Origin: a virus
IMG/VR virus record: IMGVR_UViG_3300010151_000038
Coordinates: 1-38,588 of that record
DNA: 38,588 nt
Reading direction: 5' to 3' (one strand)
Shown: piece after piece, positions 3,096 to 38,588 of the stretch
Position numbering within the stretch: position 1 is the stretch's first letter
How the letters are laid out: the number at the start of each line of letters is the position of its first letter
Position numbers and translations under genes: made by a program
Notes under the pieces: model-generated
What the model was told of the DNA's origin: nothing
The model's database searches: none
The model's input: only the letters and a program-made list of their open reading frames with translations

Positions 3096-3634
3096 TATAC
3101 AGACCAGGTAATTACTTCTATTACTGCTGGTTTAGAAACAACTGTATTTTCATTTACAACAAAGTAACTACTCAAATTAAGTGCTGAATATGGGATTACA
3201 AACACATCATTTTTAGTTGATAAGTCTACTATTGTACCAGTGTCAGCTATTGTCGCTGCACTAGCAACTCCAATTCTAACTATTGAGCCATCGTCAACTT
3301 CAGTAGTTTTTGCTACTTCCTCATAACCAGTATATCTTATAATCATTGTTCCTCTAGCTGCTACTGCTGAGCAAGCAAGTGATGTTAATGTACTCCCATC
3401 AGTACTCGAAAGAGCAATAACCTCACTTTGAGTAATTGTTATATCAGGTTGTGTACCGTCAGTGATTGCTTCAATAGTTGTTTGCATACTTCCGCCTGCA
3501 AAATATCCAGTAGGAAAAGCGCCTGAGGCTAGAGATGATGATGTTTTAGGCATATCAGCTCCTGCTAAAAACTCTAAGAAGGGGGTTACTGATACATCTA
3601 CTTTAGTGATTGCATTTGAACTTATGTCTGCCAT
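3095..3634 (-). CDS. hypothetical virion protein
   Basis: This 179-residue protein starts MADISSNAITKVDVSVTPFLEF. It is rich in Thr, Ser, Ala and Val with many short beta-type segments (ITQSEVIALSSTDGS, GTMIIRYTGYEEV, GSIVRIGVASAATI) and only one Cys. The composition is that of a phage structural protein such as a decoration, tail-tube or adaptor protein, but no family is recognised. The start lies three bases after the stop of the 892-residue gene, so the two are almost certainly on one message. Confidence 0.6.
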   Translation of the reverse strand: MADISSNAITKVDVSVTPFLEFLAGADMPKTSSSLASGAFPTGYFAGGSMQTTIEAITDGTQPDITITQSEVIALSSTDGSTLTSLACSAVAARGTMIIRYTGYEEVAKTTEVDDGSIVRIGVASAATIADTGTIVDLSTKNDVFVIPYSALNLSSYFVVNENTVVSKPAVIEVITWSV

Positions 3635-3637
3635 TTT

Positions 3638-6316: not shown

Positions 6317-6353
6317 CGTTATACTAAGCTATTACCTCTTAGATTTTAGATGT

Positions 6354-6557
6354 TTAGGCATCATCGTTAGATGCCCACAAACCTATGTAATAGGTTACAC
6401 CATTTATAGTGATTGGGAGAACCATCTCAGCATCTGATTTAGCTGGTTCGCCTGCAGAACCTGTACCAGTTCCAGCAGTTACGATATTATCAGCCGCGTG
6501 AGCCAGTGCGTCAAGAAAGTTGTCCTGTTTGTTTGAGCCGTATTGTGGATTAGCCAT
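6354..6557 (-). CDS. small protein following the capsid gene
   Basis: This 67-residue protein has a GGAGG ribosome site that begins just after the stop codon of the capsid gene, 13 bases away. Its sequence MANPQYGSNKQDNF is followed by an Ala/Gly/Thr-rich stretch and then a beta-type end (VLPITINGVTYYIGLWASND). Small proteins directly after the major capsid gene are often decoration or head-completion proteins. That is an inference from position only. Confidence 0.6.
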   Translation of the reverse strand: MANPQYGSNKQDNFLDALAHAADNIVTAGTGTGSAGEPAKSDAEMVLPITINGVTYYIGLWASNDDA

Positions 6558-6570
6558 TATTCATAACCTC

Positions 6571-8133
6571 CTATTTCCATACCGCGTGAGCTTCAGGCAT
6601 TTGCCATTCCATTCCCGCTTCAGTTTGAATTAAGTCTACTCTACGGTCAACTCCACTATTCTCAAGAGTCTGTACACCAACATAAACTGCAGTATCACGA
6701 TTCAAGCCGTTTCCGACAAGAGGTCTATACTTACAATGTTTCATGTTGATTCCAAGCATCTTAATGTCTGTGCCATCCAAATGGATATTGCGTGACACAT
6801 TCATTACACCATAAGGAGTATAGATTTGTGTTACTGCAACACCAAATGCATTTTTCTGTCCACCAACTGCGAAGTTAGCGCGACCTGCTCCATTAGAAAC
6901 GCCTGCAACCTGTTGTACATTAGCTGAGAAATACCCTGCTAATTTATGCAACCAGTTGTAAACATCCGTTGGAACAAAGAAAAGTGTAGCATTTCCATTA
7001 TTATATCTTGGGTCAAGGAATTGTGACATATCATCTAAGAAATCGTCAGATGATTTTGTGCCAGCAGCACCCATTCCGCTACCAGAGAAAATATTCCCAT
7101 AACCGAGAATAAAATCAATAGCACCTTGAGTGTACTGAGAGCCGTCTACGCTTCCTTGCGTACCAAAGAGTAGTGATTGTTCTATATCCCACTTGTGTTC
7201 AATCAACTTTTCTCTCCAGATTCGAGAAAACTCATTTGCTTCATACTTTAGCACGGTAGCACGAGTCGTGTTATCCATTGCCATAGCTGTTTTCCAAATT
7301 TGAGTTAACCCAAAGCCAGTTGTGAAAGGTTGGTCTTTCCAAGTCTCAGGGTAGCCAGTGCCTTGTCCATGTCCTGTACCTACTACATAGCTCCTCATTG
7401 GTTCAAGTTGAGTTGCAATAGTTAAACCATTGAGCTCTGCTTGTGTCAAGTTAGATGGTGCAGTGCTTTCAGCAGCTGAACCACTCCATGTGTTAGTATA
7501 GGAACAAGGATATGTAGCTGCAGCAACACCTGCTGGTGCTCTTACAACTACAGTTTCAAGAATCTGGAAATTACCACTTGCTGTTATACTCTTAACTTTT
7601 ACAAGGGCATAGTCATTAGCAGTTGCCAATACTACACCACTGTCAGCATCAGAGGCCGCAGCCGCAGCGGTACTTAATGGAATCTTTACGATTGAGTCAA
7701 CAACAAAAAATGAAGGAGCTGTACCATCTGCTCCTATCAATCTACCTGCTGTTTGTCCGTAAACATTACCAAGATTACCGCTACTTTCGTAGTCAGTGCC
7801 CATTTTAAAGTAATAGGTATTTCCAGACGCTAAGGCATCGGCTGGTATTACTCCATCGTCCTGCGTTGCTGCTGCAAGGACATCGGAATCCTCAACATAA
7901 GCATAACGCTTATGCCAAGAAGGTCTCCGTTCTGTGAACTTAAATTCAGGGTCGTCCGTTGATTTTTTGGCTACCTTAGATACGAAGCGAAAGAAAGGGT
8001 CTTGTGCTATTGCTAGCTCGGAAACTCTGTCTCCGAAATTAAACTTTCTTCTTAAGTCGCCAGTATCCTTTAATGTACCATTTGACCAAGTTCCGACATC
8101 ATTATAAGTTTCTAGATTAAAGATGTCAGCCAT
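6571..8133 (-). CDS. major capsid protein
   Basis: This 520-residue protein starts MADIFNLETYNDVGTWSNG. It is assigned as the shell protein from its place directly after scaffold and portal, its length, and its composition, which is rich in Gly, Ala, Thr and Asn with almost no Cys. An N-terminal helix-rich arm (RVSELAIAQDPFFRFVSKVAKKS) is followed by mixed alpha/beta sequence, including the stretches NATLFFVPTDVYNWLHKL and YGVMNVSRNIHLDG. These resemble HK97-fold capsid proteins of the larger (about 500-residue) class. There is no N-terminal protease-like domain. The 29-base gap from the scaffold gene holds a good ribosome site (AGGAGG). Confidence 0.85.
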   Translation of the reverse strand: MADIFNLETYNDVGTWSNGTLKDTGDLRRKFNFGDRVSELAIAQDPFFRFVSKVAKKSTDDPEFKFTERRPSWHKRYAYVEDSDVLAAATQDDGVIPADALASGNTYYFKMGTDYESSGNLGNVYGQTAGRLIGADGTAPSFFVVDSIVKIPLSTAAAAASDADSGVVLATANDYALVKVKSITASGNFQILETVVVRAPAGVAAATYPCSYTNTWSGSAAESTAPSNLTQAELNGLTIATQLEPMRSYVVGTGHGQGTGYPETWKDQPFTTGFGLTQIWKTAMAMDNTTRATVLKYEANEFSRIWREKLIEHKWDIEQSLLFGTQGSVDGSQYTQGAIDFILGYGNIFSGSGMGAAGTKSSDDFLDDMSQFLDPRYNNGNATLFFVPTDVYNWLHKLAGYFSANVQQVAGVSNGAGRANFAVGGQKNAFGVAVTQIYTPYGVMNVSRNIHLDGTDIKMLGINMKHCKYRPLVGNGLNRDTAVYVGVQTLENSGVDRRVDLIQTEAGMEWQMPEAHAVWK

Positions 8134-8162
8134 AATAACCTCCTAGTTATTAGGGAAGTGCT

Positions 8163-9032
8163 CTAGATACCTAGAGCAGCTTCTAGTTCATTGTCATTCC
8201 CTAATACTGAATCGAACACTTGGTCATCAAAAGATTTGGTAGTAGTTCCTGCGGAACCTTGACTTGCAGCTGATAAAGGCTTCTGTCGAACCCTCTTCAT
8301 CTGGTCAGTCATATCTTTCCTAGCAGAATCTGCTACATTTTTATCTCGATTTTCACGGTTCTTGAGGTAATATACATCATCTATCGTAAGAGTACGGTTC
8401 TGTGCATAGTCAACAAGGGATTTCCATTCGTCTGAACCCATCTCGTGTCTTTTTCTGAAATCATCTTCCATTTTGTCACGATTTAATTCAGCTTGTTGAG
8501 CTTGGGCATATCTGCCTACTTTTGATTCTACTTGACTGTCTACCATTTTCCGAAGAACCTTAGCTGAATCAGAATTTGAATCTGTTACAGCTTCATCCGC
8601 ATCGAAGATAAAATCTTCATCAAGACCCAGTTGTTCTTTCACATTAGGGGCTTTTGCGTCACCACTAAAATAATTTTGCACATGCGTAATTAAATTAGGG
8701 TCTTTTCTCATTGCGTCTAGGATAGGTGTATAAGGTTCAATTTCTTTCAAACGGGAGTTAATCCGTTGAGCTTCAGAACTTGAGTCTTTATACCTTTTTT
8801 CCCAGTTATGACTTCCTTCATCTGTTTGTGCGCTCGATTGCGAGGTTGCACTACTAAGATTCTGGTTATCAGCTGTGGCTGCTTCGTCTGCTGGCTCCAG
8901 TATACCTCCGTTTACTTGACGGTCAAGAGCACCAAAAAAGTCTTCAGCGGTCGGACTATTTTCTTCAGGGCTAGGAGGAGGAGCATCTACTGCTAAAGCC
9001 TTCTCTAGGTTGTCTGTGTCATTCATAGTCAT
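8163..9032 (-). CDS. scaffolding protein
   Basis: This 289-residue acidic, helical, Cys-free protein lies directly between portal and capsid, the usual place for a scaffold. The first 80 residues are disordered (PPPSPEENSPTAED). NWEKRYKDSSSEAQRINSRLKEIEPY then starts a helical region, a phrase very common in phage scaffold proteins, and a basic C-terminal part (DQMKRVRQKPLSAAS) probably contacts the shell. Two starts are possible: the ATG at 9032 lies only three bases after the AAAGGAG site, while the ATG at 9026 has a better nine-base spacing. The true protein may therefore be two residues shorter. Confidence 0.8.
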   Translation of the reverse strand: MTMNDTDNLEKALAVDAPPPSPEENSPTAEDFFGALDRQVNGGILEPADEAATADNQNLSSATSQSSAQTDEGSHNWEKRYKDSSSEAQRINSRLKEIEPYTPILDAMRKDPNLITHVQNYFSGDAKAPNVKEQLGLDEDFIFDADEAVTDSNSDSAKVLRKMVDSQVESKVGRYAQAQQAELNRDKMEDDFRKRHEMGSDEWKSLVDYAQNRTLTIDDVYYLKNRENRDKNVADSARKDMTDQMKRVRQKPLSAASQGSAGTTTKSFDDQVFDSVLGNDNELEAALGI

Positions 9033-9072
9033 AATCTCCTTTTAAGTTAATAAAAAAATCTTTTGGAACATA

Positions 9073-11322
9073 CTATTTATTTTTATCTAGTTTTTCTATT
9101 GATTGTTTCTGTTTTAAATCCATTTCTTTCACCTTAAAAGCAGTGTCACTTCTCAATTTATCTCTCAAAGCTACTTGCTGAGCCTCAGTTTGTGATACTG
9201 ATTTATCTATTCGTCCTTCAGCTTTTTGTACCTGTGACTGAATATTTGCTTGGACTACTTGTCTTTCTAATGTTTCGATAGTACCTTCTCTATCTACCAT
9301 CATACCTTCAAGTTCTTCAACTCTGCTCCTTAATTGCATATAAATACTCTTTCTCTCTATAATAGATTCTTTATTTCTTACATCTGTTTCTTGTAACATT
9401 GCAATATCATCTATTAACCCTGATTGATACCATTTAAAATATTCTTCAAGTAGGGCCCATCTGTTTAAAGGTAATGTAGAACCTCCTATTATTCTAACAT
9501 CAAACTTAGCGGTTCCGTAATCATTAAATTTTTCAATAGTTTCACCAAAGTCATTATAAATAGGAATATTAATTTCCATGACTTTTTCCTCATTAATATT
9601 ATTAGGCTGTACAATTCTAAATACTTTATTAGCCTGATATGTAGCCTGTGATAAGTCTTTAAAAATCACACCTAAATGCTCTAAAGCAGGTTCTATTACA
9701 TTCTGCATCCAAGACTTTATCCTTCTTGTTCCATACTCATCTTGAGCAAGTAGACCACGATATGTATCTTGAGAATCCTTTCCACTCCCTTGCATTGAAG
9801 AATAGATTCCAGATATGTATTCCATATCTTCTCTAGCAGTTTCAGTAATCCCAAAGAAAGCTGAGTTAAGTGGAGCTGGTTGGACTGGAGTTGGAGGAGT
9901 AAATCCTTGTCTATATTTAAGTAAAGCCCCTGGGGAAGAAGAATACTGTTCCCATTCTTCCTCTGGTACAGAACCTTCTTCATATAACCATCTAAGATTT
10001 GATGCTAAGTTTGCATTATGTATTAATATTTGATGTGCTTTATTTAATTCTCTTTGCTTACCAACCATAGGTTGCACAGCTCCTAGTGGATAAGGCGTCC
10101 CAGTGTATTGATAAACAAATGGGACAATAGGGTATTCCTTTACAGGTAGCATCTCGTCAAATAATAATTTATCTCCTGCGACTATACATACTTTAATTCT
10201 TGTTTCAAAAAACTGAATTGCATCTACAATATTATCCTTTGTTAAGTCTTGTAGTTGTATTTCTTTAAACTCTGCCTCAGTAACAACATAATTCTTTACC
10301 CTAGTTCTTTCTTCCTGCATCCCACTCTCAAGGACTTGTCTTTGATTCTCTAACTCTGACTGCATTTGTTTCTGGGCTTTTTCTAATTCTAAAGCAGCCC
10401 TTGATTCAATCATTTCTCCTTTTTCAACCTGCGACTGAAGGCTAATAGCAGTTTCTTCTATCTTAACAAACATCTCTTTTTGCATATCAGATAATTGTTC
10501 TTGCACTTGCGCTCTTATTTCTTCCATCTGATGAGGAGAAGGCGGAATATTAATATACAAATTATAGTATGAAACCTTCTCTTTTGAATAAACTTCATAA
10601 TAATCTAAAAACTCGTCCTCTTCTCCATCTTCCTTGTAAGCTGGGCCTCTAATATCAGTAGGAAAAACTACATCTGACTGGTTTATATCTCTCCCCGAAT
10701 ATGATGTTACTCCAGTGGAATTACCACTAGCATTTTTTATCATAGCCTTTTTACTAGGGAATAAATCTATTAACTGGCTTTTAGGTAAATCCTTCCTTAT
10801 CATTATATAATTTGCATCTCTAAAAAGGAAATCTCTTGAAGTTGGGTCTACAAAGACATCAAATGGGTCAATCCTCTTATAAACTACTTCCCCTAACCCT
10901 CTATCCTGGTCTGGGTCAACATCAATTTGCATATAACCAATACCCTTTACTAAAGAGTCTTGGATAATATGACTAAAAATACTATCACCATTAGAGTTAT
11001 GCCAACAATACTCAGCAATATCAGAGTGCATAGCCGCTACATCTGCATCACTTCCCTCAGCACCAACTGCCTGCCATCTTGGGTTATTCGCAGTAGCAAA
11101 ATACTTCATCATCTCTATAACTGGAGTAATTCTATTAACAACAAAATCAGGCATACCTGACTCTTGTAATATCCTTATTTCTTCTTTAGAAAGTTGGTCT
11201 CCTAAGAAAAACTCATACGATGTTTGTGCTCCAGATTCCCACTTAGTTCTCTCATAGCAATTAGCTTTAAGAAATAAATCTTTTACCTTATCTGCTTTTT
11301 TCTTTTGACTCTGTCTAGGCAT
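9073..11322 (-). CDS. portal protein
   Basis: This 749-residue protein forms the portal ring through which DNA is packaged and released. The length and the course of the sequence match podovirus-type portals: an N-terminal helical part with MPDFVVNRITPVIEMMKYF, then the FSHIIQDSLVKGIGYMQIDVD and RIDPFDVFVDPTSRDF phrases typical of the wing region. A long Gln/Glu-rich helical insertion follows (about 265-345), then a clip and stem part near YQYTGTPYPLGAVQPMVGKQRELNKAHQ. The last 80 residues are coiled coil (VEELEGMMVDREGTIETLERQVV). Its start overlaps the endolysin stop by eight bases, so it is coupled to the preceding gene. Confidence 0.85.
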   Translation of the reverse strand: MPRQSQKKKADKVKDLFLKANCYERTKWESGAQTSYEFFLGDQLSKEEIRILQESGMPDFVVNRITPVIEMMKYFATANNPRWQAVGAEGSDADVAAMHSDIAEYCWHNSNGDSIFSHIIQDSLVKGIGYMQIDVDPDQDRGLGEVVYKRIDPFDVFVDPTSRDFLFRDANYIMIRKDLPKSQLIDLFPSKKAMIKNASGNSTGVTSYSGRDINQSDVVFPTDIRGPAYKEDGEEDEFLDYYEVYSKEKVSYYNLYINIPPSPHQMEEIRAQVQEQLSDMQKEMFVKIEETAISLQSQVEKGEMIESRAALELEKAQKQMQSELENQRQVLESGMQEERTRVKNYVVTEAEFKEIQLQDLTKDNIVDAIQFFETRIKVCIVAGDKLLFDEMLPVKEYPIVPFVYQYTGTPYPLGAVQPMVGKQRELNKAHQILIHNANLASNLRWLYEEGSVPEEEWEQYSSSPGALLKYRQGFTPPTPVQPAPLNSAFFGITETAREDMEYISGIYSSMQGSGKDSQDTYRGLLAQDEYGTRRIKSWMQNVIEPALEHLGVIFKDLSQATYQANKVFRIVQPNNINEEKVMEINIPIYNDFGETIEKFNDYGTAKFDVRIIGGSTLPLNRWALLEEYFKWYQSGLIDDIAMLQETDVRNKESIIERKSIYMQLRSRVEELEGMMVDREGTIETLERQVVQANIQSQVQKAEGRIDKSVSQTEAQQVALRDKLRSDTAFKVKEMDLKQKQSIEKLDKNK

Positions 11323-11710
11323 CTTTTAACTCATAGTGTGGGAAGTCATCGAACTTATTATCATTTACTTGCCAATTTTGATTCCAGTCTCCACCCCATC
11401 TTAGGTTAATCCCCATGCTTTTTGCAATTCCAAGTACGAACCCAGCGAATAGTGTAAACCTTTCCCTATCGTTCCAATCAATAGGGTAAGGACATACATC
11501 CACAGCACGAGAAGGAGAAGCATTATGACGACCCTGAGGAAATGTAACTTTTGTCTTCCCTTCTTTGTATAGCGCATTCTGACGATTTTTGCCCCTGTGA
11601 CCTTCCAGTACAGAACAATCCACCGTCTTGATAACTTCATTCAATACCTTTTGCAGCCTTTCATCACAAGTGCGTAAAGCATTTCGTGACCTTGTGCCAA
11701 ATTTTGGCAT
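11315..11710 (-). CDS. endolysin, M15-type zinc peptidase (D-Ala-D-Ala/L-Ala-D-Glu type)
   Basis: This 131-residue protein cuts peptide bonds in peptidoglycan at lysis. The zinc-site pattern is clear: H62 in GRHNASPSRAVDV, D71 in the same segment, and H125 in FDDFPHYEL, with D122 as the likely catalytic acid. CSVLEGHRG near residue 32 is the other conserved segment of the family. Length and motif order agree with phage T5-type L-alanyl-D-glutamate peptidases. It has no signal peptide, so a holin is expected elsewhere, and none was recognised. It is unusual that the gene sits inside the packaging cluster between terminase and portal. Its start overlaps the previous TAA as TAATG. Confidence 0.85.
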   Translation of the reverse strand: MPKFGTRSRNALRTCDERLQKVLNEVIKTVDCSVLEGHRGKNRQNALYKEGKTKVTFPQGRHNASPSRAVDVCPYPIDWNDRERFTLFAGFVLGIAKSMGINLRWGGDWNQNWQVNDNKFDDFPHYELKDA

Positions 11711-11838
11711 TATTTAAACTTTCCGCCTTTTGTTCTCTTGTATTTTCTATTTGATTTCCAGTCCTTTAGATATGCAGACCTTATATTTTTAAATATTAAG
11801 TCTACCATATATTTTATACTTGGCGTAGTTATGTCCAT
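11710..11838 (-). CDS. 42-residue basic protein
   Basis: This short frame is easily missed, but it fits exactly into the coupled chain: its ATG overlaps the TAA of the gene before it (TAATG) and its own TAA overlaps the ATG of the endolysin (TAATG). An AAAGGA ribosome site precedes it. The product starts MDITTPSIKYMVDLIFKN and ends in a very basic tail (KSNRKYKRTKGGKFK) with 11 Lys or Arg in the last 18 residues. No family is recognised. With no membrane segment it is not an obvious holin. Confidence 0.65.
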   Translation of the reverse strand: MDITTPSIKYMVDLIFKNIRSAYLKDWKSNRKYKRTKGGKFK

Positions 11839-12036: not shown

Positions 12037-13629
12037 TTAGGCCACTACCCAGCTTTTTGGTACTTTTTTGTGTCTTAACCATTTATTACTGTCCTTGTCC
12101 CGTACCATATTAGGTGGGAATGCGTGTAAATTTGCATAAAACAGAGTCTCTATTGTGTCGTCATGAGCCATACGAGGCCCAAATGTAACTATTTCGTTAA
12201 TTAAATCAAACATATTTGTTCTAACATGAACAGTTCCTGTACTGAATCTTCCAGAGAGCCCTGAGTATACTCTATTTATCTTATTTTGACCTCCAGGTTT
12301 CTCAGGTATAACAGCTACATCAAACTTATTAAGTCTTCTACGCTCTTCATTTAATGCCTGAAAAATTGACCTATTCATGGCAACATCCTCTACAGTACTA
12401 GCTATACAATTATACTTTTCGTGCATTTCAATAATATAGTCCACTACTCCTTTCTTATTTAAAAGTTCCCCTTTAATATCTTTAGCACCTATTGTTGGTA
12501 TTGACCTATGTCTTTCATATTCTATAACATATAGATTATTATTAGAGTCAATAGCAATGCACATAATAACGGAAAAATCTGCTTCTTTGGTATCAATATC
12601 CGTAGCAGGGTCACAACCAATGAAAGTATTAACTGGAACTCTTTCACCATCAACAACAAGATACCCTTGATTTTCCTCACTATCATAATCGTAATAACCT
12701 TTCCAAAACTTAATTTGGTCTCTTGTGAATAAAGCATCTTCAGCACTTTGAACCTCCATCATATATTCTTGGAAGAACTTAGAATGCTGCCCAGAATCTT
12801 TATAAAACTTTTTCTTCTCGTCTAGTTTACTTTGAGGAAAGAATGACGGCCATAGAGCTTCTCCCGATGGGAGTATCGCTTTATATGTAACTATTTTCCA
12901 CGCAAAGTCTTCACCGTCTGAAATAGCGCGTTCGTAATTGATAAGCAAATTATTAATAAAGCTGTCATAATGTACGGGAGTACCATTAACACGCAACCTC
13001 CCAGTATGAGGCTCAATCGCAGGGTAAACGACAGCAGTGACCAAATTCGCATTTTTGTCCCTGGACTCTCTGGTGATTGTATTTGCTTCGTGTTCAAAAT
13101 CATCCAAAATGATAAGGTCATAGCGCTTATGGAGTTTAGCACCTCCCCTGATTCCTGCAACATTGCTCTTAGAAATAAGTTTACATCCATTAGTAAGTTC
13201 AACATCCTCCTCTGTCCATTTCCTACCCTTAGTTAAACCAAAGTAGTATAGGATTTTCTCATTAAACTCCAAATGATGTTTAATGTAATCCATATTTCCG
13301 ACAGACAATTTATGAGTGGCGGACACCCAAGCATAGAAGTGCATGTCGTCTTTAGGACAGAAAAGGAAGTCTTTTAATATAGATGCTTTTGTTAAGACTG
13401 TCTTCCCATGTCCTCTTGGTAATATAATAGCTAATTGCTTTACATTCAAATCATCTATTGCATCAGCCATTGTGTAGTGAAAAGCAGGAGTTTCTGACCT
13501 CATAAAATCGTCTGGTAAGAACAATTTCCCAAAGGCGATTAGGTCTTTATGAGCTAGTTGTAGCTCTTCTTCAGCTTTATTTATGTTTCGTGAATTTATA
13601 TTCATATATCCAATTCCATTCAGCCCCAT
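12037..13629 (-). CDS. terL: terminase large subunit
   Basis: This 530-residue DNA-packaging motor and nuclease carries the full set of motifs. A Walker A site, PRGHGKT, lies at residues 71-77 and a Walker B, LIILDDFE, at 172-179 with E179 as the likely catalytic glutamate. The RNase H-like nuclease follows, with acidic residues D340 (FIGCDPATD), E414 (STVEDVA) and D490/D491 (MAHDDTIE). Length and motif spacing are normal for phage large terminases. The start is uncertain between the ATG at 13629 and an ATG eight codons later, as neither has a strong ribosome site. It is separated from small terminase by a metallophosphoesterase gene and a 75-base gap. Confidence 0.93.
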   Translation of the reverse strand: MGLNGIGYMNINSRNINKAEEELQLAHKDLIAFGKLFLPDDFMRSETPAFHYTMADAIDDLNVKQLAIILPRGHGKTVLTKASILKDFLFCPKDDMHFYAWVSATHKLSVGNMDYIKHHLEFNEKILYYFGLTKGRKWTEEDVELTNGCKLISKSNVAGIRGGAKLHKRYDLIILDDFEHEANTITRESRDKNANLVTAVVYPAIEPHTGRLRVNGTPVHYDSFINNLLINYERAISDGEDFAWKIVTYKAILPSGEALWPSFFPQSKLDEKKKFYKDSGQHSKFFQEYMMEVQSAEDALFTRDQIKFWKGYYDYDSEENQGYLVVDGERVPVNTFIGCDPATDIDTKEADFSVIMCIAIDSNNNLYVIEYERHRSIPTIGAKDIKGELLNKKGVVDYIIEMHEKYNCIASTVEDVAMNRSIFQALNEERRRLNKFDVAVIPEKPGGQNKINRVYSGLSGRFSTGTVHVRTNMFDLINEIVTFGPRMAHDDTIETLFYANLHAFPPNMVRDKDSNKWLRHKKVPKSWVVA

Positions 13630-28685: not shown

Positions 28686-28722
28686 GCGCAGGTGGCTTAA
28701 TTGCTGCCTGCGTTATTTTTTT
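28686..28722 (+). terminator. rho-independent terminator of the rightward block
   Basis: CGCAGGTGGC (28687-28696) pairs with GCTGCCTGCG (28703-28712) over ten positions with two G-U pairs and a TTAATT loop. GTTA and seven T follow. It lies where the two blocks meet, and its T-run overlaps the stop codon of the leftward gene. On the other strand no T-run follows the stem, so it mainly stops rightward transcription. Confidence 0.8.
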
Positions 28723-31700
28723 AGTCATCATTCAAAATTTCGTATACTTCTTCAGCACTTCCTGCTGCCTCTTTAATAGGAGTAGGTAGATACTGTTGTA
28801 TACCTCTATACATATTACCATAAAAATCAGCAATCAACTGCCATGCACTAACAACAATGCCAGGGAAGTAATCTCTTAGTACATCTTCTACTGCATCATC
28901 TTCCTCATCTCTGTTAAGCATATCTAAAGCAAACATACCTATCCATAGTAAATGTAATGTTCTAGTTAATAAAGGACTTGCCAATCCAAATACACCTCTT
29001 TGAGTGATAGGATTCCCAAATCCAAACTTCTTAGCTAATTTTACTCCCATCCTCCATACACCATATGTAGGAGTTTTATAAAACATAGCTACTGACATTA
29101 GAGATGCTAGACCCCTTATAACCATCATATTAGTAGCTCTATCTAAATTCTTATCATCTAGCTCCTTGTTCATATTAAGATATTTTGCTAATTTTTGATA
29201 CCTCTTACTCAATAGTCCTGGTGCCCTAACCATTTTCTTTAATATTTGAAGAGACATTCTTGGAGCTAGTGTTGCCCATCCTCCTATTGCATCGTACTTA
29301 CCTGATAAAGCTGCCCCCCTAAGAGTTTCATGCTCAAGTATAATTTCATTCCAGTCATATTGTTTCCATTGTAGATATGTTCCAGATGTTCCACCTCTAA
29401 ACATTTTAGCTAGCATAGGCTTAGTAAACCCAAAAAGGTTATAATATACATATAGCCTACCCATTCTAACTGCCGCAGGAGAGTCAGTATATTTCCACTT
29501 CCTACCTGCAGGAGGCTTTTTAACCCTACCTAATTCATCAGCTTTATAAAACCCTGATAGTGTAGCCTCTTCTCTCATTTGCTGTTCAGAGCCCTTCATA
29601 GTAACAAATGGTTTTAAAATTCCCAACCAAAACCAATCAATCTTCCATTTAACTAACCTATTTATATGTCTTCTAGTAAGCCCCATCCTCAATTCAGAGA
29701 ACTGTTTCCTTAATAACTTCTTATCTTTAGACTCACCACTTACAATATCAAATAATAGAGTCTTAATTCTTCTTAACTCTTGAGTCTCTATCTTCTCCCC
29801 AGAACTTCTTTCAGCAGCTGAGGCTATCATTTTATCCCAACCTTTACTATTTGTCATCCACCCTTTAAGAGATGTTGCCTTCATTAAAGCAGCTATATCT
29901 TTAAAAGGTAGTAGTGCATCTTTTACCCCAGTGTCCCCTGCAGCTAAACCCATAGTAAGCATATCAATGAAAGCATTAAATGGTTCAGTTACACCAGTTT
30001 CGTGTATTTGCTGTTTTAACTCATCTGCACTGTGATTAGCATCCCCATGCTCAAGAGCCTGAACAGCGTTCCACCAAGGTTCTATACCATAATTAACTAA
30101 TTGTGATACCCTCTGAAAGTTATTTGTTATAGATGTCCATGTACCAAGATTCATACCAGTCTTTAAACCTCTCCACATCAGATTAACATCCCTTACATCT
30201 TGAGCATCCCATTGCCCAGATAGAAAAGATGCTACATTTTCATCAGAAGTGTCAAACCATAGAAACTGTGATTCAATATCTATATGTCCAGTAGAAGCCT
30301 TAGTCTGGTCTACTAAAAATTGAACAAGAGGAGGGTTTTCGTGTACTGCTAGTATAGTTTTTAGAAGCTGAGTCTTCAATCTAGTATACTCTATTGTTCT
30401 CATAGCCTGGTCAACATATTGGTTATGGACATCTCTAGTTTTTATTCTTTGCTTTTTATCTGCAAATAGAGTCCTACCTTTGCCAGCTACTATCTTATCT
30501 GATAATTGCATAGACCTACGACCATCTTCAGAATTATAGTCACCATAGAGCCTATTCTTCATATGCTCTACTATCTCATCATAATGAGCCAACCTTTCCT
30601 CTATTAATGATATATCTTCTAGGGCCTCAGATTTTTCCCCACTATCAGCATCCTCAGATTCAAGTATATTCTTTGAGTCTTCTAAGTGAGCTTCCATCTC
30701 AGGTATATGTGATTTTTCGATAGAAGATATAGCTTCCTGTAACATTCCCTTATATATAATATCTTCATACTTAACATGTCCCCAACTCCATCTAGATACC
30801 TTTCTTATAAATGAATTAGCACCTACAAAATTACCTTCACTATCCTCTCTTAGATTATACTCTAACCCACCAATTTCATCAACCTTATTAAGGACAGCTT
30901 CTAAATCTTCTGCAGAGTATCCAGCCTCAACTAGTTGGTCAGCTACTCTATTAAAGTGGTCTCCAAAATCAAGCATAGTATCCTTATATTCCTTTTTTAA
31001 TACTTGATTAAAGAAGGCTTCAGACCATTCCCTCTGTTTCTCTAAAGTATCCCACATAGCTACCATCCATTTTTTAGGAGGTTGATATGTAGTATCCTCA
31101 TATTGTATGCCATATGTCCAATCATTCCACTTTCTCTTAGGCATCATAGTACCTGGTATAGGGTCAAACGGGTAAGGAACATCAGACTGTGCAGTATAAA
31201 ATCCTTCTTCAAGACCATTTTGTTTTAAATGAGAAATAAGATTCTTTTCAGTTAATCCTTTATTTGTCCGAATATCATTTAAAAATGTAGTTACATCATC
31301 AGGTATTCTATACACAAGATATGCATTTTCATTCTCACCAGGGTATTCTGCTTTCAGTAAAGTCCCATCATCTATTTGAGCATCTCTAACATTCTTTAAA
31401 GCAGCCTTAGGTTTCTCCTCTTGGTGTAATGGTATAAGAACATATTGCTCTCCCCCTTCACCTATAGTATGTCTTTCAGACTCCGTAGCTAACTGTTTAA
31501 AGAAACTTTTACCTTTCCAAGAATTTCTCCAAGCCTGAAACTCCTTTGGAGTCGTTGGTATTTGACCAGGTATAATATTTCTAGCCTCAGTATGCATTAA
31601 CTCATCAAAAAACTGCGCTATTGCTAAACCAGTATGTTTCTTATTAAGTCCAGGCACTTGTCCGTGAGCAATTAATGAAGTTAGTTCATCAGTTATACCC

Positions 31701-32410
31701 CTAAGATTAAAAGTACTCTTCTTACCAGTAGTAGGGTCAATAACACTTTCTTTCCATTTAAACCCTTCCATTAAATACATATCTAATACTTCTTGTGACA
31801 TCTGTACCAATTTGGTAGCACTACCAGTTGGGTCTAATGATGCAGCTACTATGCCAGGGGCCTTCATTTGTTGTTCAAATTTAGTTAGACCTAGCTCTTT
31901 CTTTATCTGACTAACAGCCATCTTTTCCCATTTTGATACCTTCAGTCTAATATATTTTATCTTACCAGCATCCCAATCCGCAATGTTATTTAAACCAGAC
32001 ATTTCTACGCCTTTTGCTCTATGCTTATATACTGACTGTCCATATGCTCCCTCAATAACACTTTGTATATAATTAACTCTTTCATCTATAAATTGGTTAG
32101 GAGTAACAGTTACAGGGACAGACTCTAATAGTCTCTTTGAACTGTCAAGTAAATAGTTATATAGTTTTAAGTGTTCATTATATCTCTTCTTTTCTATTTT
32201 CGCTAAGGCTAGATTTTGTCTTTTCTCAGTTGGGGTCTTAGCATCTTTAGACCTTTGAAGGAATATTTTTGTACTATCAAATGGAAGTTCTATTATATCA
32301 GTTACACCATCATCAATACCAGCCATTATAGTCTTTATAGAGGCATCATCTATCTCCATAGCTAGTCTTTTAAACTCACAATTTGTAAATGGATTTTTAC
32401 TTTTAGCCAT
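28721..32410 (-). CDS. giant late protein, probable internal virion/ejection protein
   Basis: The start is the ATG at 32410, overlapping the TAA of the preceding giant gene as TAATG. A TTG 12 bases earlier is less likely. The 1229-residue product is mostly helical and charged in its first 900 residues, with one acidic coiled-coil part (HIPEMEAHLEDSKNILESED). The C-terminal 250 residues carry three hydrophobic helices (IRGLASLMSVAMFY, PLLTRTLHLLWIGMFALDML, FPGIVVSAWQLIADFYG). Large proteins of this type in podoviruses are packaged in the head and pass into the cell with the DNA, and the hydrophobic end fits membrane passage. No enzymatic motif was recognised. It is coupled to the RNA polymerase-like gene. 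Confidence 0.65.
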   Translation of the reverse strand: MAKSKNPFTNCEFKRLAMEIDDASIKTIMAGIDDGVTDIIELPFDSTKIFLQRSKDAKTPTEKRQNLALAKIEKKRYNEHLKLYNYLLDSSKRLLESVPVTVTPNQFIDERVNYIQSVIEGAYGQSVYKHRAKGVEMSGLNNIADWDAGKIKYIRLKVSKWEKMAVSQIKKELGLTKFEQQMKAPGIVAASLDPTGSATKLVQMSQEVLDMYLMEGFKWKESVIDPTTGKKSTFNLRGITDELTSLIAHGQVPGLNKKHTGLAIAQFFDELMHTEARNIIPGQIPTTPKEFQAWRNSWKGKSFFKQLATESERHTIGEGGEQYVLIPLHQEEKPKAALKNVRDAQIDDGTLLKAEYPGENENAYLVYRIPDDVTTFLNDIRTNKGLTEKNLISHLKQNGLEEGFYTAQSDVPYPFDPIPGTMMPKRKWNDWTYGIQYEDTTYQPPKKWMVAMWDTLEKQREWSEAFFNQVLKKEYKDTMLDFGDHFNRVADQLVEAGYSAEDLEAVLNKVDEIGGLEYNLREDSEGNFVGANSFIRKVSRWSWGHVKYEDIIYKGMLQEAISSIEKSHIPEMEAHLEDSKNILESEDADSGEKSEALEDISLIEERLAHYDEIVEHMKNRLYGDYNSEDGRRSMQLSDKIVAGKGRTLFADKKQRIKTRDVHNQYVDQAMRTIEYTRLKTQLLKTILAVHENPPLVQFLVDQTKASTGHIDIESQFLWFDTSDENVASFLSGQWDAQDVRDVNLMWRGLKTGMNLGTWTSITNNFQRVSQLVNYGIEPWWNAVQALEHGDANHSADELKQQIHETGVTEPFNAFIDMLTMGLAAGDTGVKDALLPFKDIAALMKATSLKGWMTNSKGWDKMIASAAERSSGEKIETQELRRIKTLLFDIVSGESKDKKLLRKQFSELRMGLTRRHINRLVKWKIDWFWLGILKPFVTMKGSEQQMREEATLSGFYKADELGRVKKPPAGRKWKYTDSPAAVRMGRLYVYYNLFGFTKPMLAKMFRGGTSGTYLQWKQYDWNEIILEHETLRGAALSGKYDAIGGWATLAPRMSLQILKKMVRAPGLLSKRYQKLAKYLNMNKELDDKNLDRATNMMVIRGLASLMSVAMFYKTPTYGVWRMGVKLAKKFGFGNPITQRGVFGLASPLLTRTLHLLWIGMFALDMLNRDEEDDAVEDVLRDYFPGIVVSAWQLIADFYGNMYRGIQQYLPTPIKEAAGSAEEVYEILNDD

Positions 32411-35400
32411 TACTTTGGACAATCCTTTAGAATTTCATTAACCTGTTTATCGTGTTTATCTTCATATCTAGTTCCTAGTTTAAGTCTCCCAGGTGATTCC
32501 TCACCAGCTGCTCTGATATTAGCTCCTAATCTTTCAGCAAATTCTCTCCATACTCTTTTGTCCATTAGTTGCATTGGCATATATTTTTCAATATCTCTTA
32601 CTCTGGACTGGTACAATAAACTCTTCGGACTAATAGTTTTATCTAAATCCCTAGTTTTCTTTTCTATTTGGTCTTCAATCATTTCTCTGCGAGATTCTTT
32701 CATATCAGGTTCATTAATAAGTTTTTCTCTAAGAGATGTTATGCTCTTAACCATGTCTTTACTTCTCTTCGTAAGTATTGCAGTTCCTTTTTCTTTCTTT
32801 ATAATACCCCTCAGAAATCTCAATGTTGCATACGCTTGCTGTTCTTTAGTTAAATCATTCCAAGATGGGAGCTTTAACTTTTTATCTCCCTCAGTTAACC
32901 ACTTCTTAATAAATCTTGTCATTTCTTCTGAGTATGGATAACCTGATGCAGTAAGACGACTTTTATTAGCATCATCATAAGCCTTAGCTCTCATAGCAAC
33001 TTTATAAAACTCACCTCCAGCATTATTTATCCATCTTCTAGCTAGTTTTTTATCCTTTTCCCACAATGCATTAGGATACCACTTACCCCCTATCCCACTA
33101 TCCTCTTGCTTTTGTATACTATATAAATCTTTCTGTGTTTGTACGATAGCATTAATCATCCTATTAGAACTATACCCCCACGGGTGTTGATATACCTTAT
33201 CATCAGGGTTATCATTTTCATATTCTACCCATTGTTCATGTGGTATAGAAAGTAATTGTTCAAGAGATGTTAGTTTATTATTAAATGATAGCTTATCTAC
33301 TTCTTTTGTCCCTTTAACTAATCTACTTGAATCACCAAATCTTAGTCTCATCTTATTAGCTCTTTCTTTTATTTCTTCTCCTCTTTCAACATTGCTAAGT
33401 TGATTCAATTCATATATGTTTTTACTTGCTTCAAACATATCAGCCATACTCTTAGATTTTAATGTAGATTGGTCTCTTCCTCTTCTTTCATATCCATGCG
33501 ATAATAATTTTCTAAGTATTTGTGAGATTGTCCTAGCTTGAGCATTCCCTATCTGAGAACCATTAGACTGTATAAACATCTTCTTTATAAGGAATTTATA
33601 ACCTTCATACTTCCAATGAGATAATAAATACTCTTTTGCATTATCGACAGCTGCTTGGAATAATATTTTCATCTCCATAAGAGGATTAGTTAATAGATAC
33701 TTTTCTCCACTTGTCCATTTATTTCCGTCCTTATCTACAAGAGTACCCATACCAGACTCTTCTAACATCTCTGAAGTGACATCATCTCTAAGAGGGGCAT
33801 AGTCTATCACTCTACTATTATTTTCAGGGTCTCTAGCAACGATTTCTTGGCCACCAATAGTTGCTTTAAATCCCTTAAAATACATATCCTCAAAGAATTG
33901 GATAGCATTTGTCATTACACCCTGAGAGTATAGGCCAGCTCCAATCTTACCTCCCACTTTATACATATCCTTCTTGCTAGTCATTTTGTATTCTGTTTCA
34001 TCATTCTTAAAATACTCTAGTCTAGCAAAATCAGCTCTTCTTTCTAATGCCTTTTTCACCTCAGGGCTCTTCATAAGATTAACTATTGAAGCATCTGTAT
34101 AGTTTTCACCAAAATACATCATTAAAAAGAAAGAATTATCTCCATCATGGTCTGCCTGTAATCTACCCTTTACTGTATCAGGGTGTAACCATGTCACATT
34201 TCCATGACCTCTAGGCATTACCTTCTCTACAGTTGCTAAAAATAATCCTGCAGGCGTATACACAGGCTGTCTACCAACAAGTAAATATTGTTTATTTGTC
34301 CTTAATGATTCATTTATATTATTTAATAACTCATCACCAGAACCAGTTACATTAAGTCTTTTCTTTAAAAAGTTTACAGTTGTAGTGTCATCTCCACTAA
34401 CAACAACCCCATCCTCATTCTTAACAATAGTTCTGGTTAAATCAGGCTTAATAACTGGGAAATTACCTAATCCTCTCCTTCTACTTCTATATGAATTTTC
34501 TTTCAGCATCCTACTCTTAATTGGTTCTATAAGACCACCTATAATATGAGGGATATTATATCCATCTTTTAACATATTACCCTTATCTGGCTCAATTAAT
34601 CTATCGACTTCATTCACTATTGAAAGACCATCTGATTTCATTTGTCCCATAAGAGCTGCTAAAACTTCAGGATTTTTTCTTGATGTGAACATTGCCCTAA
34701 TATTTCCTCTAGCAACATTTAACATTTTAACGAGGATAGCATCTCTTAATGCATCAAAATCAGAATGGAATAAGTGAGACATCCAAGGCCACGGGAAAGC
34801 TGAACTATTATGCGCTCTTTGTTTAGGAACCTTAACAATCCTTCTAGACTCCTCAGGTAGTGTTAAAATATCAGTTGATACTCTTCCATCCAACTTAAAT
34901 GCTCCACTACCACCATCAGGCTCTTTAGCTTCATCTAATGTAGCAAACTGATTAACTCTATTATGGTCACCATCAAATATCCTGATATTACCTGAATCAT
35001 CTTTAGTCGTATAAATAATTACATTACCATCTCCGTCAGTAATATATATGTTCTCCTCAGGCACAAATTCATTATGCTTAGAAGCAAAGTAATGTATCCC
35101 TTCCCAATCATCTTCATTACGAAATAATTTAGGTTCATAATTATCTTTAGAGAATGAATCATTCTTACTAACAAATCTTATTCTGCTCTTAATCTCTCTT
35201 ATAGGAACTCCCTTTTGCAAAGGTACTCTACCTAACATTTCTCCAGTATCATCTAACATTTCACTATCAGTCCATAAGGCTCCATCAGAGTTATATACAT
35301 CATCTAGACCTGCAATATAGTCCTTCATAGGAATAGCCTTTGATGCTCCAGCAGTTCCTGGTTCCCCTTTACTAACAAAAGTTTTACTATGGTCAACTAT

Positions 35401-38400
35401 CTTTATAGTTCTATCTCCAACGCCAATAGCAACTGCCCCTTCTCCGTCATCTATTGCTAGTCTTCTAAAGTGGTGTGTCATATCAGGTGTTCTCATAAGA
35501 TAGTCTGCTCCACGAGCCCTCTTTCTCATTTCATGCTCCAATATTTTCTGAGCTGCAGGATGTTTATTATTGGTAGAATATCCACCTACTATATCATTGA
35601 GTATCTCAGTCTTTTGAGATTCAGTCATCCTTCCTCTCTCGACTTCTACATCAAAGTAATCAAAAATAGCATCAGTATCCTCTGCTAAATCCATAATCTC
35701 TTTACTAGCTCTAGCGACTAAAAATGATGGTTTATTACCTCCAGATTTTATCCCCCATATAGTCCTAACTACTCCACCTCCAATTTCCCCATCATCAGCC
35801 ATTTTTGAGAGCTTCATATCCCATCCCGCTATATCCTTTTCACCTAACTCAAGAAAGGAGCCTTTAGAGTAATACTGAGTTTCTCCTTTATCATTTCTGT
35901 CACCCTTCCATACATCAACAATATCATTTAAATATATTCTTGTTACTTTTATATCACCCGTCTCATATTCATAACTCTTAGCATCCCAATCTAGAAAAGA
36001 CACTGGCAGAGATGTAGGTAAGTCTTTATTACTTCTTATATCTTTACCATATTTAGGGTGACCACCAATTTTAGGGACTAGTCTTTTGTCATCAGTATTT
36101 TTAATCCTCTTACCATCCTCAGTTAAGTTAGCATACCACCATGATGGCTTGTCAACTGCACTCTGTCTATTAATATGTTGATTCCTAACCCAAAAAGACC
36201 TCACCATATTATAATCTTCTACAGTCTGTATTTTAAAATCATAGACATCAAATAAGTAATCTTTTACAAATGTATCAAAATCTTTAAACCTAGCATTTTC
36301 CATTAGGTCTCTAGTCTGCGATGGGTCTAGCCATCCAGTAGACATTGTTCCTTCAAGAAATTTAAAGAACCTATCTCCTCTAAAGTCATAAGATTCAAAT
36401 GTTAAATCACTTGCTATCTCCTCTACATCAGAAGAGTCAAGATTCTCTAACCCTTCTCTAGTTGTATCATGGCTAAACACCTCGTCCTTACCATCTAGCT
36501 CTGATTGTATTGCTTCCATAACTCTACCACCAACAACTGTTTTATGGATACTGCTTTGCAGTTTGCCACCTTTGCCCATTGCCTCTACAATACTGATAGC
36601 TTTATTAAATCTTCTCTTTTTAACATTTACATTAGGGTCTTGCTCTCTTGCCCATTTTACAACTATATTCTTATAAGCATTTTTTGAAGGCCCATCTGCT
36701 CTACCTCTACCAAACATTGATGTAAGCATCCTCTGCTCTGGAGTACTCAACTTTCCAAATGCTCTATACATATATGAAGAGAAGTCTTCTAAAGGAATAT
36801 TATACTTACTATTCAGATGCTTAAAGGTTGAGGTTAGTATAGCCCCAATAGCCTCATATTTAGTAGGGTCACCAACTACAGAAGCAACTGCTTGTGAAAT
36901 AGCATCCCTTATAGGAGCATATTTTGATTTAGCAGTTGTCTTACTTGCTATCTCTATTACATTATCACCATCAGGCTGATACTGTTTAACAATCTTATTT
37001 TCTCTTGGCCTTCTAACTGGCTTATGGAGGAATCTTGGTATTCTAACCTCAAGACCTGGTTCTAAACGAACTGCAACAAGCATTGCTCTAGTCTCTGAAT
37101 GAATTTTAGGTGATAATTCTAGTCCTAAATCTTTAGCAACCTGTTTTAATGCTAATGAAAATACACCTTCTCTAGGTGCATCCTTATAGACCTTCATTGC
37201 TACATCTTTAGTTACTCTACCTCTACCATTTATTTGTTTATGAGTTTTAGGATTAGCAGTCACCCAAGTTTGGTCGTAACCACCTTGGGTAATCTCATAT
37301 CTTTTACTATTCCAATCATCTCCAAGATTCTCATTATAGTCCTGCAGAAGGGTATCGTACATCTTCTGCCAATACTCTAAAGGTTTACCATTGTAAGTTT
37401 TATCTTTATCATCTTGACCCTTCTTAGGGTCTAAAGGTGCAAGTCCTTCTTGTCCCTTAAAGGCTTGAAAAATCTTTTTAAACTCTTCAATCCTTGCTTC
37501 CATCTCTTTTTTATCAATACGATGTATTCTTACTTTATTACCATAAGCTCCATGATTCATTTCTGAGCTAGAAGTATTTAGCCATGCATCAAACTGATGA
37601 ATCAGCATGGGTTCTGACATAGTATGGTTACCTGTTCCGTTGCCAAATTCTTTATCTACCCAGGGTAGATTATGATTTTTCTTCCTAGACTGCCAATCTT
37701 CAAAACTAATAGCTCTTCTAGAATCTTTTACTTCAAACTCAGAGACATACTGTCTTGATGATGTAGAACCACCTTCCCATATAGTATTAGCTTCTCCAGT
37801 GGGAAAATAAACCCATTCCTTACCCCTACTAGAAGCCATCTGAATTGCTTTATAAATTTGCCTCTTTCTAAAATTATTTAGCTCAAGAGAAAGATTCTCC
37901 TTCATATCCATTTCTTCAAACTTCTGATTCTTTCCTGCTTGAGATGCTCTTATGTCTTCAAGTTTCATCCCCCACTGTTGAATGAAATCACCATATGTAT
38001 CCATCAACCCATCCTGCATCCTCCTAGCCATAAATAGATACCAATCAACAATAGTTTGAACAGCTTCTTGGCTATTATACTTTCTTGCTCCCCATATATA
38101 TCGACCTTTTTTAATAGATTCTTTCTTTGCCTTATTATCACTTAAATACTGACCATCCTCAAAAAGTTTTTGTAAAACCTTTATGCGACTAAATATATAT
38201 TTTTTTTCTGCTTCGTATGATAGATAAGCATGTTCATTTCCCATCACGGCTCTTGCTCTTAGTCTTTCTGCCTCAGACTTCGCACTTTCTATAGAATGCT
38301 GACTAACATCAATAGACTTAATCCTTATTCTTGGAAATACCTCCCCAACTAGGCTACCAAACTGATGTGATTTTGTACTAGTCTCTAAAGATAGCTCTGC

Positions 38401-38588
38401 TTCATCCTTTTTAGTAAATTTCTGCACCATCATCGCCCAAGGGCCTGATTCTACATTTCCTTCATTATCCTTATATGGTTTATTAGTCCTAGAGCCTCTA
38501 CCGATTGGTTGAATAGTCCTTGTCTGAGTAATCCACTCTTTAATTTTGTAAACTAAATCTCTATGGAGGTCATACTCTAAAGAATTAA
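32410..38588 (-). CDS. giant two-barrel RNA polymerase-like protein, N-terminus outside window
   Basis: The frame is open to the right edge (2058 codons visible), reading EYDLHRDLVYKIKEW and so on before the Met at 38433, so that Met is internal. Numbering from it: VGRQPVYTP (R1388, P1390), WLHP (H1417) and LQADHDGDN (D1428, D1430, D1432) follow the order of NRAPT, LHP and NADFDGD in RNA polymerase beta-prime, after a GNFPVIKPDL segment (1323-1332) like the start of that barrel. Upstream, YNSDGALWTDSEML (D1050) resembles the GYNFEDAI-LISE segment of beta, followed by K1074 and K1082, eight residues apart like the catalytic lysines of beta. The protein is probably a single-chain polymerase carried in the virion. 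Confidence 0.7.
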   Translation of the reverse strand, partial: NSLEYDLHRDLVYKIKEWITQTRTIQPIGRGSRTNKPYKDNEGNVESGPWAMMVQKFTKKDEAELSLETSTKSHQFGSLVGEVFPRIRIKSIDVSQHSIESAKSEAERLRARAVMGNEHAYLSYEAEKKYIFSRIKVLQKLFEDGQYLSDNKAKKESIKKGRYIWGARKYNSQEAVQTIVDWYLFMARRMQDGLMDTYGDFIQQWGMKLEDIRASQAGKNQKFEEMDMKENLSLELNNFRKRQIYKAIQMASSRGKEWVYFPTGEANTIWEGGSTSSRQYVSEFEVKDSRRAISFEDWQSRKKNHNLPWVDKEFGNGTGNHTMSEPMLIHQFDAWLNTSSSEMNHGAYGNKVRIHRIDKKEMEARIEEFKKIFQAFKGQEGLAPLDPKKGQDDKDKTYNGKPLEYWQKMYDTLLQDYNENLGDDWNSKRYEITQGGYDQTWVTANPKTHKQINGRGRVTKDVAMKVYKDAPREGVFSLALKQVAKDLGLELSPKIHSETRAMLVAVRLEPGLEVRIPRFLHKPVRRPRENKIVKQYQPDGDNVIEIASKTTAKSKYAPIRDAISQAVASVVGDPTKYEAIGAILTSTFKHLNSKYNIPLEDFSSYMYRAFGKLSTPEQRMLTSMFGRGRADGPSKNAYKNIVVKWAREQDPNVNVKKRRFNKAISIVEAMGKGGKLQSSIHKTVVGGRVMEAIQSELDGKDEVFSHDTTREGLENLDSSDVEEIASDLTFESYDFRGDRFFKFLEGTMSTGWLDPSQTRDLMENARFKDFDTFVKDYLFDVYDFKIQTVEDYNMVRSFWVRNQHINRQSAVDKPSWWYANLTEDGKRIKNTDDKRLVPKIGGHPKYGKDIRSNKDLPTSLPVSFLDWDAKSYEYETGDIKVTRIYLNDIVDVWKGDRNDKGETQYYSKGSFLELGEKDIAGWDMKLSKMADDGEIGGGVVRTIWGIKSGGNKPSFLVARASKEIMDLAEDTDAIFDYFDVEVERGRMTESQKTEILNDIVGGYSTNNKHPAAQKILEHEMRKRARGADYLMRTPDMTHHFRRLAIDDGEGAVAIGVGDRTIKIVDHSKTFVSKGEPGTAGASKAIPMKDYIAGLDDVYNSDGALWTDSEMLDDTGEMLGRVPLQKGVPIREIKSRIRFVSKNDSFSKDNYEPKLFRNEDDWEGIHYFASKHNEFVPEENIYITDGDGNVIIYTTKDDSGNIRIFDGDHNRVNQFATLDEAKEPDGGSGAFKLDGRVSTDILTLPEESRRIVKVPKQRAHNSSAFPWPWMSHLFHSDFDALRDAILVKMLNVARGNIRAMFTSRKNPEVLAALMGQMKSDGLSIVNEVDRLIEPDKGNMLKDGYNIPHIIGGLIEPIKSRMLKENSYRSRRRGLGNFPVIKPDLTRTIVKNEDGVVVSGDDTTTVNFLKKRLNVTGSGDELLNNINESLRTNKQYLLVGRQPVYTPAGLFLATVEKVMPRGHGNVTWLHPDTVKGRLQADHDGDNSFFLMMYFGENYTDASIVNLMKSPEVKKALERRADFARLEYFKNDETEYKMTSKKDMYKVGGKIGAGLYSQGVMTNAIQFFEDMYFKGFKATIGGQEIVARDPENNSRVIDYAPLRDDVTSEMLEESGMGTLVDKDGNKWTSGEKYLLTNPLMEMKILFQAAVDNAKEYLLSHWKYEGYKFLIKKMFIQSNGSQIGNAQARTISQILRKLLSHGYERRGRDQSTLKSKSMADMFEASKNIYELNQLSNVERGEEIKERANKMRLRFGDSSRLVKGTKEVDKLSFNNKLTSLEQLLSIPHEQWVEYENDNPDDKVYQHPWGYSSNRMINAIVQTQKDLYSIQKQEDSGIGGKWYPNALWEKDKKLARRWINNAGGEFYKVAMRAKAYDDANKSRLTASGYPYSEEMTRFIKKWLTEGDKKLKLPSWNDLTKEQQAYATLRFLRGIIKKEKGTAILTKRSKDMVKSITSLREKLINEPDMKESRREMIEDQIEKKTRDLDKTISPKSLLYQSRVRDIEKYMPMQLMDKRVWREFAERLGANIRAAGEESPGRLKLGTRYEDKHDKQVNEILKDCPK

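Follow-up and report, generated by a model that had tools for sequence, protein, structure and literature searches.

A predicted giant two-barrel RNA polymerase and facing terminal cysteines in a phage lineage not placed in Crassvirales

The window, i.e. the whole stretch of DNA analysed here, comes from IMG/VR, where it forms a virus record of 38,588 bases. It carries a giant ORF, the next gene, whose product is hereafter called the partner, and genes for a large terminase and a portal protein (Table 1). In the first-pass annotation, the giant was described as a late gene at 32410-38588; the ORF is present, but it is open at the window edge, so that the 2007 aa counted from the first in-window ATG are a minimum. 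Two numberings are used for this protein, one starting from that ATG and the other following the open frame (the ATG number equals the open-frame number minus 51). The motifs on which the annotation had based its reading as an RNA polymerase (RNAP) were found, with GRQP at 1387, LHP at 1416 and QADHDGD at 1426 (ATG numbering), and R1388 is separated from the first Asp, D1428, by the 40 residues it had reported.

Table 1. Coordinates of the features discussed in the window.
Feature	Position	Strand	Remarks
Giant ORF: N-terminal part and predicted two-barrel RNAP core	32410..38586	-	at least 2058 aa of open frame; 5' end cut by window edge
Beta-prime-type catalytic block GRQP...LHP...QADHDGD	34138..34275	-	open-frame residues 1438-1483; family profile matches crAss RNAPs
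D-H-D-G-D, predicted metal-binding triad, D1428/D1430/D1432 (ATG) = D1479/D1481/D1483 (open frame)	34138..34152	-	3 Asp invariant in 25/25 members
Invariant Arg R1388 of R-x-P (open-frame R1439)	34270..34272	-	family conservation
Invariant Lys K1170 (ATG) = K1221 (open frame), candidate beta-type barrel Lys	34924..34926	-	conservation; co-linear with conserved Lys of crAss 'VKVG'
Stretch with K1074 and K1082 (lysines of the first-pass annotation)	35188..35214	-	not conserved in family
Codon of the giant's only Cys, third from C-terminus, DCPK (open-frame C2056)	32419..32421	-	
Codon of the partner's only Cys, residue 11, MAKSKNPFTNC	32378..32380	-	
Partner gene, starting with the ATG at 32410 (1229 aa)	28721..32410	-	shares bases with the TAA of the giant (TAATG); product may be homologous to the third virion protein of the crAss RNAP block
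Large terminase (phrog_38), through which the lineage was found	12040..13629	-	
Portal protein (phrog_156)	9076..11322	-	PHROG family differs from phi14:2 portal

Neither a crAss-type portal nor a crAss-type capsid was found in the window, whose portal and capsid belong to phrog_156 and phrog_1328, as compared with phrog_6547 and phrog_11589 in phage phi14:2. By these two families, the phage is not placed in Crassvirales. Its large terminase (TerL) is only about 22-25% identical to those of N4-like and other phages, among which the lineage's TerL has its weak matches. A scan of the early block for sigma-70 promoters gave no excess over shuffled sequences (75 vs 72.6).

Relatives of the giant were reached through TerL: with the terminase of the window, over 500 related IMG/VR contigs were retrieved, some of which had giant ORFs, and a profile built from four of these giants retrieved 29 loci in the same database. 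Single-protein scans of IMG/VR with the window giant gave no match. Its similarity to the nearest relatives had E-values of 2.5e-17 and 1.4e-9 in BLASTP, and the subgroup to which it belongs was aligned with the rest of the family at an E-value of 7.9e-8 over 382 columns (hhalign). Complete giants in the relatives are 2773-3254 aa long, the gene that comes next encodes about 890-1280 aa, and the 25 giants that could be aligned are only 12-22% identical to that of the window. Both R-x-P and D-x-D-x-D are invariant in these 25 giants, as well as in 22 non-redundant members. All invariant columns among the 25 members were one Gly, K1221, R1439, P1441, D1479, D1481, D1483 and C2056 (open-frame numbering). 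Where the window has DHDGD, relatives carry DWDGD, DFDID, DHDYD, DHDLD, DFDGD, DMDGD or DYDVD, always behind R-x-P.

Two other elements of the first-pass annotation did not hold in the family. It had proposed K1074 and K1082 as barrel lysines; neither is conserved in the 25 aligned giants, whose sole invariant Lys is K1170 in 'TLDEAK'. It had also pointed to YNSDGALWTDSEML upstream of the catalytic block, which is not a family motif. In the set of crAss RNAPs, the order of conserved elements is K...K...R-x-P...D-x-D-x-D, and the subgroup of the window does not conserve the second, crAss-like barrel Lys.

The giant is almost certainly a single-chain two-barrel RNAP, as the annotation had suggested, and three lines of evidence agree on this reading: conservation of the active-site residues, a profile match to relatives of crAss gp66 and the fold predicted for a relative. 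The family profile matched the crAss RNAPs with an E-value of 2.3e-5 and a score of 59.5 (hhalign); the highest score among 60 controls, shuffled or reversed, was 21.4. In a weaker co-linear segment (E-value 0.3), the SASK of the family is paired with the lysine of crAss VKVG. The window's subgroup alone (3 sequences) had no match to the crAss RNAP profile, and the link to crAss proteins goes through the wider family. In phi14:2 gp66 the corresponding block reads RIP...SS...VGI...DFDIDK, and similar blocks are present in other crAss RNAPs.

For the relative L142 (residues 1170-2368), AF2 produced a model with a pLDDT of 71 and a pTM of 0.68, rising to a pLDDT of about 90 around the catalytic block. 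Its best Foldseek matches in PDB were the phi14:2 virion RNAP (6VR4, E-value 2.6e-10), QDE-1 (about 1e-7) and RDR2. Structural alignment by VIA-align gave a Z-score of 14.4 to QDE-1 (461 residues, 4.4 A) and 10.3 to 6VR4 (688 residues, 5.9 A), and Z-scores of about 10.7 were obtained for the single-chain phage RNAP structures 8f72 and 8f5m (titled gp64 and gp62). The core of the window giant itself gave an AF2 model with a pLDDT of 37, which is not usable, probably due to the lack of close relatives; its fold is therefore derived from homology. No T7-like single-subunit RNAP domain was matched in the window protein by Pfam or PHROG, and the L142 model fits the two-barrel fold instead. By profile comparison and modelling, the giant is placed within the crAss gp66/QDE-1 clade, with D-x-D-G-D and R1388 predicted in the beta-prime-type barrel and K1170 as a candidate for the beta-type barrel.

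The expectation of a divergent branch was also borne out. Neither the window protein nor the family profiles had an RNAP match in Pfam, PHROG or PDB sequences, and no relative of the window giant was found among 50,697 annotated phage records. No host is named, since two scans of GTDB genomes with the family profiles gave no relative. On the other hand, several viral proteins that are nameless in the BFVD tables, such as A0A516L9L2 and A0A516M3R5, match the L142 RNAP model with E-values down to 2e-45, far better than crAss proteins do, so that relatives appear to be already present in UniProt.

Additional features were observed in individual relatives. The relatives L122 and L123 (giant of L123 at 3171-11738) have a segment resembling PD-(D/E)XK nucleases (PF12705, E-value 0.0068, below the cut-off of Pfam; of the two, L123 was the one scanned) and an HExxH motif, the latter absent from the window protein. 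The sites of the nuclease-like segment or HExxH motif (L123 residues 1094-1217 and 1390-1394, L122 residue 402) are upstream of the RNAP core. Contig 3300030329_001359 (G001, 111116 bases) has two ORFs of portal size as well as two genes for giant RNAPs that belong to different subgroups, and may represent two phage genomes joined in assembly.

One of the closest known systems is the virion RNAP of phi14:2 (gp66, PDB 6VR4; Phi14:2_gp077 in KC821624), which shares the two-barrel core with R-x-P, a conserved Lys and D-x-D-x-D, very large size, a large protein encoded directly downstream and terminal Cys pairs at the junctions. It differs in that it has no pairwise similarity to the window giant, and in that the RNAP chain of the window's lineage bears a long N-terminal part. 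This N-terminal part had no detectable match to the first crAss protein. The partner was aligned with the third crAss protein at an E-value of 0.005 and a score of 37.1 (maximum of 28.3 in 60 shuffles), which is suggestive, and the two may be homologous.

A 4401-aa 'structural protein' of Flavobacterium phage Fpv1 (ANB40275) also carries its RNAP behind a long N-terminal part in one chain. It contains only one Cys, next to the last residue, and the following protein has a Cys at residue 3. Unlike the window giant, it has clear crAss-type sequence (a tblastn match of gp66), and its partner has a second Cys at 1461. Fpv1 (KU599877; L166, 9369-22574) lies outside Crassvirales and carries a crAss-type RNAP motif. 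QDE-1 and RDR2, although matched in fold by the L142 model with Z-scores up to 14.4, are cellular RNA interference polymerases that are RNA/DNA-dependent and have no ejection context. Phage N4 gp50 is a giant virion RNAP of 3500 aa, but has a T7-like single-subunit polymerase fold and not a two-barrel one. The giant gp96 of P23-45 contains a two-barrel RNAP (PMC10770324), in this case fused to a tail tape measure in a long-tailed phage, and lacks the terminal Cys pair. Neither N4 gp50 nor P23-45 gp96 has any Cys at all.

The terminal Cys pair is a new observation, absent from the first-pass annotation. All 30 giants with the C-terminus present have exactly one Cys, located within the last 10 residues, and the divergent L093 fits as well (31/31); this count includes a few giants cut at the N-terminal end, that of the window among them. 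Two truncated giants have none. Partners likewise have a single Cys, located at one of residues 3-11, in all of the 29 loci that show a partner together with the window and the neighbour of L093 (31/31, including some partners cut at the far end). At 50% identity, the loci counted group into 15 clusters, to which L093 is added. At the Cys content of the other window proteins (0.99%), the giant should have about 20 Cys and the partner 12, as compared with one observed in each. The two Cys codons in the window are about 40 bases apart and flank the TAATG, and the sequences surrounding the terminal Cys are not conserved. In nine relatives (L125, L130, L133, L134, L137, L142, L143, L150 and L153), one or two Cys-free proteins of about 340-550 aa are encoded just upstream of the giant; these ORFs resemble the Cys-free cargo genes that precede the crAss RNAP block.

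The same Cys pair was observed in crAss phages and Fpv1, in which it is present in all 10 separate RNAP-to-third-protein junctions examined, but not in fused ones. The 1797-aa protein of phi14:2 has a single Cys, at its very end; the two Cys of gp66 are at residues 3 and 2179 of 2180, and the only Cys of the next protein is at 3. Matching terminal Cys were also found in crAss001 gp47, gp50 and gp49 and in DAC15, with a few internal Cys in some of them. RNAPs that appear, as judged from length, to share a chain with the first module (Fpv1, cr55_1, cr118_1, cr50_1, cr109_1 and cr125_1) lack the N-terminal Cys and retain the C-terminal one. Those of crAss002 and crAss ZA, which are fused to the third module, have no C-terminal Cys, and their N-terminal one is at 35 and 24, respectively, possibly because of start-site annotation. 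Several internal Cys occur in some of these proteins, and for the two stop-recoded genomes, cr125_1 and cr109_1, stops were retained in the translations. The terminal Cys were not attributed to gene overlap, as crAss001 gp47 ends alike although its gene and those of gp50 and gp49 are on opposite strands. Literature searches, the reach of which did not extend to the phi14:2 RNAP structure paper (Drobysheva et al.), returned no mention of cargo proteins of this type being linked through cysteines or disulfides.

Packaged RNAPs of the two-barrel type have been described in crAss-like phages (PMC7886860) and in P23-45 (PMC10770324). In crAss001 virions, gp47, gp49 and gp50 are cargo and are thought to be ejected partly unfolded, and disulfides are present in the tail (PMC10172136). 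By analogy with crAss phages, the giant RNAP would be packed in the head together with its downstream partner, and both would pass in a partly unfolded state through the portal and tail, after which the RNAP would transcribe the first phage genes in the host. The C-terminal Cys of the giant and the N-terminal Cys of the partner could form a disulfide in the virion, giving one covalent chain that would be ejected in order and then parted in the reducing host cytoplasm. A Cys-free chain might avoid wrong bonds during unfolding and refolding, and with one bond at every junction the cargo would become a single thread, to be separated on reduction.

It is quite likely that the giant is virion cargo. 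Packaging and injection of the enzyme, which the first-pass annotation had proposed, are inferred here by analogy, and this view is strengthened by the gene block and the Cys pattern, both of which are in common with crAss virion cargo. We somewhat favour, from the distribution of Cys residues, an end-to-end disulfide between the giant and the partner as ejected cargo proteins. Extended to the ejected virion transcription proteins of crAss-like phages, Fpv1 and this lineage, the sequence pattern would suggest a common rule, to which we give even weight: these are Cys-poor or Cys-free chains that may be joined by C-terminal-to-N-terminal disulfides into one ordered thread, parted in the reducing host cytoplasm, and fusion would replace the Cys pair.

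A serious, if less favoured, alternative is that the terminal Cys do not join the giant to the partner and that each is self-paired, metal-binding or anchored to another virion component, given that which thiol pairs with which cannot be read from the sequence. The residues, however, occur only at the facing ends, with none at the outer ends, are absent where the two proteins are fused and have no conserved sequence around them, all of which speaks against this alternative. It is rather unlikely that the two-barrel RNAP is made after infection and not packaged, like P23-45 gp64 or YonO. Such non-virion single-chain enzymes do exist (PMC10770324; PMC5467207), and the lineage is known here through its genomes only; against this stand the large size of the giant, its conserved large downstream partner, the Cys-free ORFs upstream of it in relatives, and a Cys pattern common to crAss proteins whose presence in virions is known from mass spectrometry (PMC10172136; KC821624 annotation).

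That the protein keeps the RNAP fold in a structural role, with no catalytic activity, seems very improbable: the window has Gln and His where E. coli beta-prime has Asn and Phe, but the catalytic residues and the C-terminal Cys are the most conserved positions of the family. A chance match of the motif in an unrelated protein, for which one could cite the lack of a direct sequence match between the window protein and any RNAP, has a negligible probability in view of its invariance in 25 divergent relatives and the structural matches. Taken as a whole, a two-barrel RNAP that is packaged, ejected with its partner and joined to it by a disulfide is probably the best explanation.

The enzyme appears to be a divergent representative of a known kind; the sources searched contain no description of it in this phage lineage. 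Packaged-type two-barrel RNAPs would thus be extended to a lineage that is not crAss-like by portal and capsid, and that has no isolate in the records searched. The junction Cys have a significance that extends beyond the window, and the Cys rule offers a directly testable hypothesis for how very large protein cargo may be delivered in order through a narrow tail.
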